Part shown: in pieces, positions 1,231 to 17,328 of the stretch
Position numbering within the stretch: position 1 is the first letter of the stretch
How the letters are laid out: each line of letters begins with the position of its first letter
Virus record (IMG/VR): IMGVR_UViG_3300033978_000224
Coordinates: 1-21,182 of that record
From: a virus
Length of the DNA: 21,182 nucleotides
Direction: 5' to 3' (one strand)
Position numbers and translations under genes: made by a program
The notes under the pieces: generated by a model
What the model saw: the letters and a program-made list of their open reading frames with translations, nothing else
Told to the model about the DNA's origin: nothing
The model's database searches: none

Positions 1231-1304
1231 GGAGCAGTAGCCAAGTTGGTTAAGGCCCCGAACTCATAATTCGGTTATCGTAGGTTCAAGTCCTACCTGC
1301 TCTA
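1231..1304 (+). tRNA. tRNA with anticodon CAT (elongator Met, or Ile2 after lysidine modification)
   Basis: Acceptor GGAGCAG (1231-1237) pairs with CTGCTCT (1297-1303) with a G-U at the first pair. Anticodon stem CCGAA/TTCGG (1258-1262/1270-1274) holds the loop CTCATAA, anticodon CAT at 1265-1267. T arm GTAGG-TTCAAGT-CCTAC at 1280-1296, discriminator A1304. The first pair is not the C-A mismatch of an initiator and the anticodon stem lacks three G-C pairs, so it is not tRNA-fMet. CCA is not encoded. Confidence 0.93.
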
Positions 1305-1308
1305 CTAT

Positions 1309-1381
1309 GTCTCCATGGTCTAGTGGCCTAGGACTCCACCCTTTCACGGTGGCAACACGGGTTCGAATCCCGTTGGAGATA
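1309..1381 (+). tRNA. tRNA-Glu (anticodon TTC)
   Basis: Acceptor GTCTCCA (1309-1315) pairs with TGGAGAT (1374-1380), again with a G-U first pair. Anticodon stem CCACC/GGTGG holds loop CTTTCAC, anticodon TTC. T arm ACGGG-TTCGAAT-CCCGT at 1357-1373, discriminator A1381; no encoded CCA. Only 4 nt separate it from the previous tRNA, so the two probably mature from one transcript. Confidence 0.94.
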
Positions 1382-3693: not shown

Positions 3694-3710
3694 TATATTA
3701 AAATATAATA

Positions 3711-3755
3711 TTTCTCCTTTATGGTATAATTAAACTATAGACCTTAAAGGAGAAA
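3711..3755 (+). promoter_or_regulatory. promoter inside an inverted repeat that covers the Shine-Dalgarno
   Basis: TTTCTCCTTT (3711-3720) is the perfect complement of AAAGGAGAAA (3746-3755), which contains the Shine-Dalgarno AAGGAG of the gene at 3761. Between them is the extended -10 TGG-TATAAT (3722-3730) with a start near 3737. Transcripts from this promoter lack the left arm and have an open ribosome site. Read-through transcripts from the upstream gene contain both arms and should hide it. Confidence 0.6.
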
Positions 3756-3760
3756 TTTTT

Positions 3761-4186
3761 ATGAGCATATATGATTTATCACTTACTGATAACTTTGGAA
3801 ATGAAATAAAACTAAATAATTTTAAAGGAAAAAATATATTAATAGTAAATACCGCAAGCCATTGTGGCTATACTACACAGTATGCGGATTTGCAAAAAAT
3901 ACAAAATGAAAATACAGTTGTAATTGGGTTTCCATGTAATCAATTTGGCAATCAAGAGCCAGGTACAGATCAAGAAATTAAAGATTTCTGTACAACAAAT
4001 TATGGTGTAACCTTTACAATTTCTAAAAAGGTAGATGTAAATGGACCAAATGCCCATCCAATATATAAGTACTGCAAAGAAGTTACTGGTAGAGCAGACA
4101 TTGGCTGGAATTTTGAAAAATTTTTAATATCTACAGATGGATCTATTACCCATTATCCTAGTTCTTATCAGGTATCAGAATTGTAA
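3761..4186 (+). CDS. glutathione-peroxidase family thiol peroxidase
   Basis: 141 residues, a compact GPx of the Cys, probably thioredoxin-dependent type. Peroxidatic Cys35 is in NTASHCGYT, Gln65 in GNQEPG and Trp116-Asn117 in GWNFEKF, completing the C-Q-W-N tetrad. Cys77 in IKDFCTTNYG sits where the resolving Cys of 2-Cys GPx enzymes lies. It would reduce hydrogen peroxide or lipid hydroperoxides in the cytoplasm. The C-terminus stops about 15-20 residues earlier than in most bacterial homologues (ends YPSSYQVSEL) but all catalytic residues are present. Start fixed by AAGGAG 8 nt upstream. Confidence 0.92.
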   Translation: MSIYDLSLTDNFGNEIKLNNFKGKNILIVNTASHCGYTTQYADLQKIQNENTVVIGFPCNQFGNQEPGTDQEIKDFCTTNYGVTFTISKKVDVNGPNAHPIYKYCKEVTGRADIGWNFEKFLISTDGSITHYPSSYQVSEL

Positions 4187-16245: not shown

Positions 16246-16428
16246 TTATTCTTTTATTTTAAAAACTACTTGACATGGATCTCCGCCATCTTCCCATTCC
16301 TGCTGTTCCTCAGCAGTCATGTATGGATCTCCATCGTGTGTGTTGCAGAACGGTTCTGTTATCCATCCCCGCTCAATTCCATTTTCTAACCAAATAGAAA
16401 ATTCGTCGTGATCTATTTCTTCTAACAT
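16246..16428 (-). CDS. 60-residue acidic phage protein, leaderless
   Basis: Very acidic; the core ERGWITEPFCNTHDGDPYM and EEQQEWEDGGDPCQVVF is distinctive, with two Cys and a His that might bind a metal. I do not know a function. There is no Shine-Dalgarno: the ATG is 6 nt after a consensus -10 whose -35 is TTGACA, so a strong, leaderless mRNA is predicted. The promoter lies inside the 3' end of the proteasome-like gene. Confidence 0.75.
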   Translation of the reverse strand: MLEEIDHDEFSIWLENGIERGWITEPFCNTHDGDPYMTAEEQQEWEDGGDPCQVVFKIKE

Positions 16429-16434
16429 ATAATA

Positions 16435-16463
16435 ATTATACCCCTAAGCACTGACAATGTCAA
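16435..16463 (-). promoter_or_regulatory. full-consensus promoter, leaderless start
   Basis: On the - strand TTGACA (16463-16458), 17-bp spacer, TATAAT (16440-16435), 6 nt, ATG 16428. The -35 is within the last codons (VDIVSA) of the upstream gene. Confidence 0.85.
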
Positions 16464-16968
16464 CTGGGCCCATACATGATGGGTTAAATTTGATAGCAGC
16501 ATTTACTGCTTGCATTACTCTGTTCCTTGCATTTTTTTGCTTATCTGTTGCATATAGAACCCCATATGCATACTCTGATCCAGAACCCATGGCAAGATAA
16601 GGAAGCATGTACTTAGATAAAGACATATCTCCAGAACTGTGTTCGTATAGTTCTCCACGAACTGCAATGATTAAACCAAGGTCTCCCTCTTTAGATGTGT
16701 CAACCCAGAACTCGTTGTAAAAGTCACGCAGTTCTTTAACAAATCTTGTATGCATAAATTTATCTGTATCTTTAATAGTAGGAGCAGTTGGTTTAAAGTT
16801 GTGACGAATTCTTTCTCCGTCCATTGATCCTGCATACCCAATTAAATAGGGACCAGTCTTCCAAACCTTTGGTGCTTGAAGTGCTAGAATGGTTCCATCA
16901 TCTGATGCTCCACGATCTCCAGCCATATAAACTTTGTCTTCATGCTTTAAAACAACAATACAGGTCAT
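16444..16968 (-). CDS. proteasome/HslV-like N-terminal-threonine hydrolase
   Basis: 174 residues from ATG 16968, selected over the longer frame to 17007 because GGAGGGG precedes it and removal of Met would expose Thr1 (TCIVVLKH). Counting from that Thr, Asp17 (AGDRGAS) and Lys33 (APKVW) fall exactly at the catalytic positions of 20S proteasome beta subunits, and LAMGSGSEYAYG is the conserved glycine/serine loop. No propeptide. Phage proteins of this type are known but poorly understood; roles in head maturation or in degrading host proteins are guesses. The gene follows the small membrane gene cassette and has its own promoter. Confidence 0.88.
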   Translation of the reverse strand: MTCIVVLKHEDKVYMAGDRGASDDGTILALQAPKVWKTGPYLIGYAGSMDGERIRHNFKPTAPTIKDTDKFMHTRFVKELRDFYNEFWVDTSKEGDLGLIIAVRGELYEHSSGDMSLSKYMLPYLAMGSGSEYAYGVLYATDKQKNARNRVMQAVNAAIKFNPSCMGPVDIVSA

Positions 16969-16973
16969 GCGAA

Positions 16974-17027
16974 AGCCCCTCCAGATAGGTATAGTTAAGT
17001 ATACCATCCACCTGAAGGGGCTGTCAA
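16974..17027 (-). promoter_or_regulatory. promoter of the proteasome-like gene inside an inverted repeat
   Basis: On the - strand TTGACA (17027-17022), 18-bp spacer, TGG-TATACT (hexamer 17003-16998). AGCCCCTTCAG (17022-17012) pairs with CTGGAGGGGCT (16984-16974), 11 bp with one T-G, 27-nt loop. The right arm includes the Shine-Dalgarno GGAGGGG; the left arm lies upstream of the predicted start (about 16991). Confidence 0.65.
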
Positions 17028-17043
17028 GCAGGCTTAATAATGA

Positions 17044-17328
17044 CTAATTAGCCTTTTTGTCTACCGTTTTAAACGCATCATTGATCTCTGCCAATGTGAG
17101 TTTTCCATCGTCCAAAAAAGCCCTTGCCAGCCTTTCAATGACTGTTGCTACGCCTAATAGACCTGCAAGCATTACTGCTTGTATGGTGTCAATTCCTACT
17201 ACGGCTCCTGCACCAAGTACTGATAAACCTGAAGCAGCAAATACTGCTACTATACGCATCAATATATTTGATATAGCCTTTTGTGGTTTTTCTTTCTTAG
17301 GGGCTTCTACTATCTTTTTAGTTGCCAT
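17044..17328 (-). CDS. small membrane protein, holin-like
   Basis: 94 residues. A Lys-rich soluble start (MATKKIVEAPKKEKPQK), then two hydrophobic stretches (ILMRIVAVFAASGLSVLGAG and IDTIQAVMLAGLLGVATVIE), then the charged tail LARAFLDDGKLTLAEINDAF. This order is common in actinophage holins near lysin genes. Starts at the stop of the previous membrane gene (TAATG). A holin call is by pattern and position; topology is not proven. Confidence 0.68.
   Translation of the reverse strand: MATKKIVEAPKKEKPQKAISNILMRIVAVFAASGLSVLGAGAVVGIDTIQAVMLAGLLGVATVIERLARAFLDDGKLTLAEINDAFKTVDKKAN

Follow-up and report, generated by a model that had tools for sequence, protein, structure and literature searches.

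A Shine-Dalgarno-masking RNA hairpin nested in a promoter as a probable translational insulator of an HslV-like phage gene

The HslV-like gene of the virus record IMGVR_UViG_3300033978_000224 is preceded by a predicted RNA hairpin that is nested in the promoter of the gene and masks its Shine-Dalgarno sequence (SD), and that very probably serves as a translational insulator. The window, that is, the whole stretch of DNA analysed, is this 21,182-bp IMG/VR record; it lies outside the cellular genomes compared, and the virus is presented here as one infecting aquatic bacteria. Polymerase arriving from the upstream holin-like and structural genes would copy both arms of the hairpin, and in this presumed read-through mRNA the SD would be hidden and HslV would remain untranslated. 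RNA started at the nested host-type promoter would begin a few nucleotides upstream of the right arm, without the left arm, so that the SD would be free and the protein could be made. The evidence obtained by computation comprises the two arms and the promoter motif, the covariation, a G-U bias on the sense strand, the predicted accessibility of the SD and the recurrence of the arrangement before unrelated genes.

All features of this locus lie on the minus strand, where several small membrane genes form a run (17748-17044) that ends in a weakly holin-like member (17044..17328), located directly upstream of the site and the presumed source of read-through; it matched the holin family phrog_443 weakly and phrog_26427, annotated as nuclease, better. 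After a gap of 16 nt follow TTGACA-18-TGGTATACT (17027-16998) and the gene of an HslV/proteasome-like Ntn hydrolase of 174 aa (16444..16968; PF00227, phrog_1040). The promoter scanner reported TTGACA-18-TATACT with an extended TG and 11/12 matches at 17027..16998, with the -35 element TTGACA at 17022..17027 and the -10 element TATACT, extended by TGG, at 16998..17003. TTGACA and TATACTT were invariant across 37 aligned relatives, and the promoter spacing across HslV relatives was TTGACA-17/18-TATACT. Transcription is predicted to start at 16991, 7 nt past the -10. A start at this distance agrees with the next downstream gene (16246-16428; TTGACA-17-TATAAT, window 16428-16463), whose -10 ends exactly 6 nt before the ATG, a spacing identical in 62/62 relatives with a scored promoter; judged from this spacing, the mRNA of that gene is leaderless.

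The start codon of HslV was placed at 16968. An alternative start at 17007 was rejected because the frame of this upstream ATG is broken in relatives with a 1-nt insertion, and the start at 16968 gives a protein beginning M-T, which after removal of Met has Thr1, Asp17 and Lys33, the catalytic positions of proteasome/HslV proteins. Relatives of the protein were sought in GTDB genomes and none was found encoded there, the Rfam search at the HslV leader gave no match, and the literature search on transcription in Nanopelagicales phages returned nothing usable.

The left arm AGCCCCTTCAG, an anti-SD (17012..17022), forms 11 bp with the right arm CTGGAGGGGCT (16974..16984), one of them a U-G wobble (17015/16981), as the first-pass annotation had described. 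Its placement of the left arm between -35 and -10 also holds, the arm filling most of the spacer and overlapping the -35 hexamer by one nucleotide, its first A, and the right arm does contain the HslV SD, GGAGG (16982-16978). Absent from that description was an inner helix in the sense-RNA fold, formed by GGTATA (17000..17005), which overlaps the -10, and TATACC (16988..16993), with 98.6% of cells paired. The complete helix is interrupted, with about 12-14 bp plus 6 bp, and the sense-strand fold reached -32.2 kcal/mol, whereas dinucleotide-shuffled sequences averaged -19.2 +/- 3.1 (z -4.25, 0/200).

It had further been proposed that the hairpin forms only in read-through RNA, and folding predictions agree with this. 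For 91 distinct homologous leaders, with own-promoter RNA modelled from a start about 7 nt past the -10 and thus predicted to lack the left arm, the median predicted probability of an unpaired SD was 0.0004 in read-through RNA and 0.48 in own-promoter RNA, and the predicted cost of opening the SD was 14.6 and 2.5 kcal/mol, respectively. For the HslV device of the window itself the opening cost was 14.1 vs 2.3 kcal/mol.

A total of 361 related viral-contig loci were considered, of which 80 were kept, and a promoter pattern scan added more. The left arm stands before the -10 in the relatives that were aligned or inspected, and the arms change jointly among relatives (AGCCCCTTCAG/CTGGAGGGGCT, AGCCCTCTCTGG/CTGGAGAGGGCT and ACCCCTCCTGGG/CTGGGAGGGGT). 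Across 36 distinct arm pairs, 95.8% of the cells of a 12-bp helix were paired, compared with 50-75% in slid controls. Compensatory changes were present at 8/12 helix pairs, and double-change cells numbered 71 vs 21.7 after shuffling; these values all refer to the alignment A2, which was constructed to fit the helix, and the sequences are related, so the counts from shuffling should not be read as probabilities. An independent alignment made with MAFFT (A1) pointed in the same direction, with 4 compensated pairs and 98.6% of cells paired.

A similar arrangement, which had been indicated at 3.7 kb, proved to be real. On the plus strand, the left arm ATTTCTCCTTTA (3710..3721), a -10 TATAAT with extended TGG (3725..3730) and the right arm TAAAGGAGAAAT, holding the SD AAGGAG (3745..3756), precede a glutathione peroxidase-like (Gpx) gene (3761..4186; PF00255, E 8.6e-38); the predicted SD opening cost was 13.0 kcal/mol in read-through and 1.9 kcal/mol in own-promoter RNA. 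Gpx leaders carrying both promoter and inverted repeat (L198, L207, L228, L241, L252 and L255) fold at -17 to -26 kcal/mol. Gpx relatives without the nested promoter mostly lack the hairpin as well, and most relatives other than the leaders just named show a plain operon junction with neither element. A few Gpx relatives have a promoter-like sequence without hairpin, and these count against the insulator reading.

The window also contains an Hsp20 gene (PF00011; 8617-9160, minus strand) with a consensus promoter, in which a terminator-like hairpin and T run overlap the -35 and spacer. Its 5' leader has two hairpins, the second of which masks the SD, and is similar across the relatives inspected; from its predicted structure it is a candidate RNA thermometer. 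Two tRNA genes stand in tandem on the plus strand of the window (1231-1381).

The search for nested SD-masking repeats suggested in the first-pass annotation was carried beyond the site, and enrichment was detected among related phages and, by pairing extension, across IMG/VR. Among 293 gene clusters that combine TATA[AC]T with an SD, a stem score >=26 was reached in 6 vs 0.33 expected, and a score >=28 in 5 vs 0.13 expected. TATA[AC]T sites taken genome-wide without the SD and gene filter gave only a small excess (6 vs 2.9 at a score >=28), probably due to AT-rich repeats that inflate the null. The device was also present before a marine deaminase-like gene, assigned from a sequence motif only (L085, L122 and L132), and before a gene of L272.

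The IMG/VR site lists are lower bounds, and the counts given here are among the matches listed. The motif TTCTCCT..TGNTATAMT..AGGAGAA had at least 36 matches in IMG/VR. Before 19 distinct genes, the pairing extended over 80 further positions vs 24.6 +/- 6.2 expected (0/5000), among the matches listed; matches of the same list away from genes (12 vs 10.1 extra pairs) and a permuted-arm control (14 vs 15.3) showed no excess. A second motif (B) gave 156 vs 58.8 extra pairs before 38 genes (0/3000), again among the matches listed. Listed matches of motif B that were not called as preceding genes showed a weaker extension (56 vs 30.3), and because the extension also occurs away from called genes some of them are generic palindromes. 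Raw IMG/VR counts among the listed matches showed no enrichment of complementary over permuted left arms (36 vs 39); the argument therefore draws on how far the pairing extends, on gene context and on a position control, in which an anti-SD placed after the -10 with equal gap volume had 8 listed matches vs 36, 1/8 before a called gene. For 32 genes with at least 3 extra pairs, a co-directional upstream neighbour was found in 23, with a median gap of 23.5 nt among the matches listed. The guarded genes include an integrase, a RecD-like helicase, a prohead protease, a ligase and a phosphatase-like protein; endolysin leaders showed no consistent device. Unrelated genes share only SD complementarity in their arms. 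From the two sites of the window it had been argued that unrelated sequences with the same logic favour a regulatory device over chance, and the observation at HslV is indeed far from chance.

Two observations were made in the course of these comparisons. In T4-like phages (L366, L373, L375 and L355), TTCCTCTTGACTG...CAGTTAAGAGGAGAA surround an early-type promoter as an apparent nested SD-masking device, before a gene that we take to be a T4-like regB. At L433 (533-576), each strand of a near-perfect palindrome carries TCCTCC as well as a -10, and ORFs run in both directions; this palindrome could be an operator.

A DNA operator, in which a dimeric repressor would bind the inverted repeat straddling the promoter and RNA folding would be incidental, had been named as a refutation and was considered. 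In its favour, the two-fold symmetry runs from the -35 spacer to the SD, and some IMG/VR matches, such as that of L433, form near-perfect palindromes flanked by genes on either side. Departures of the G-U and the A-C kind are equally tolerable in a DNA palindrome, while a sense RNA tolerates only G-U. In the fixed 12-bp frame the symmetry-breaking pairs were 97 G-U vs 5 A-C, and under neutral scoring of unique arm pairs 72 vs 9; the G-U excess in the fixed frame has p about 2e-8 even against a 0.74 expectation (left-arm-only mutation), a value for related sequences that are not independent. Since G-U departures far outnumber A-C departures, selection appears to act on the sense RNA rather than on a DNA operator, and the arms of unrelated genes, having in common only SD complementarity, also disfavour an operator, which we regard as very unlikely.

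An attenuator or weak terminator, whose GC-rich stem and U3-5 would stop upstream transcription just before the gene, is of slightly lower probability still. In its favour, GGGGCUUU or GGGGUUUU stands at the end of the stem, and a terminator-like hairpin with a T run is nested in the Hsp20 promoter elsewhere in the window. Against it, the longest T run ahead of the start codon was 3 in 58/93 leaders and 5 in only 2/93, the stem covaries but its U tract is variable, and the minus-strand scan called no terminator from the upstream gene to HslV. A plain intrinsic terminator, the other refutation that had been named, was rejected on the short T runs and the lack of a scanner call, a GC stem with a U-rich tract not being found; termination may contribute partially. 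The least probable explanation is a processing site, at which RNase III or another nuclease would cut the read-through hairpin and destabilise the RNA or free the SD. Intercistronic phage hairpins are often processed, and this one would be a long stem within intergenic mRNA, but its interrupted helix and a conservation that follows SD pairing, with no fixed cleavage sequence, speak against it. The preferred reading is an SD-masking hairpin acting as translational insulator.

Natural displacements speak for this insulator reading. In G005, two genes separate HslV from the membrane cassette; the first of them is methyltransferase-like (weak PF01739 match) and follows a full device whose arms are unrelated to those of HslV (GTATTTTCCCCTACTTAG...CTGAGTAGGGGAAGATAT), and the hairpin of the displaced HslV has decayed, its SD being 0.71 unpaired by prediction. 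In L009, another gene is inserted behind the HslV-type device, and HslV keeps a promoter without left arm. From these two cases, the device stays at the membrane-cassette junction and not with the HslV gene. The exception is L053, with HslV directly behind a different holin-type cassette and a weak hairpin, and it counts against the insulator reading. Methyltransferase-like and oxygenase-like genes also have an insertion spot in the junction behind the holin-like cassette (L009 217-1013, L287 4926-6331).

Whether nested SD masking is a general and repeatedly evolved form of phage insulation, by which auxiliary genes of late operons would be translatable only from their own host-type promoters, and which in this phage group would stand beside leaderless genes and promoter-nested terminators, is in our judgement an evenly balanced proposition. 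The comparisons extend a device known in T4 from a handful of genes to many unrelated phages and genes, where it is apparently widespread, and they supply natural displacement cases. A simple sequence rule, an anti-SD before the -10 and an SD after it, would find genes deliberately uncoupled from read-through; the arrangement suggests how phages may accept new late-operon genes without mis-expression, and could provide compact natural parts for insulated expression.

As described in two reports (PMC3014915, PMC2988022), the T4 genes e, soc, 49 and I-TevI have the SD or start codon sequestered in long transcripts initiated upstream, and a promoter just upstream of each gives a short RNA without the 5' strand. 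According to the same reports (PMC3014915, PMC2988022), the effect for gene e is about 100-fold, and the set uses late TATAAATA promoters, with the gene silent early and on late. The HslV SD is likewise predicted to be buried in RNA started upstream, in agreement with the covariation, and the promoter is placed so that its RNA, from the predicted start, would lack the left arm. Unlike the T4 set, the nested promoter of HslV is of sigma-70 type and not a T4 late TATAAATA promoter, the left arm lies within the -35/-10 spacer, and the gene family differs; sharing the logic but not the late promoter, the HslV device is a variant of the T4-type kind. Given a host-like nested promoter, and lysis and structural genes among those upstream, the timing is probably the reverse of T4, with translation on from host-type promoters and off in late structural-gene read-through.

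In Tn10/IS10, Tn5/IS50 and IS200, RNA read through from outside folds over the transposase start and RNA from the internal promoter does not; our literature search on this parallel gave nothing usable. The phage device resembles these hairpins in that read-through RNA is predicted masked and own-promoter RNA open, and differs from them in that their arms are the end of a mobile element guarding a transposase, whereas here single resident phage genes are guarded, the HslV-like gene (PF00227, phrog_1040) not being a transposase within terminal inverted repeats. Morons of lambdoid phages are extra genes of the late operon with their own host-type promoter, usually insulated by a terminator. HslV, too, is an extra gene that has entered a late operon and is served by a host-type promoter of its own; unlike in the lambdoid morons, its proposed insulation acts on translation and lies within the promoter.
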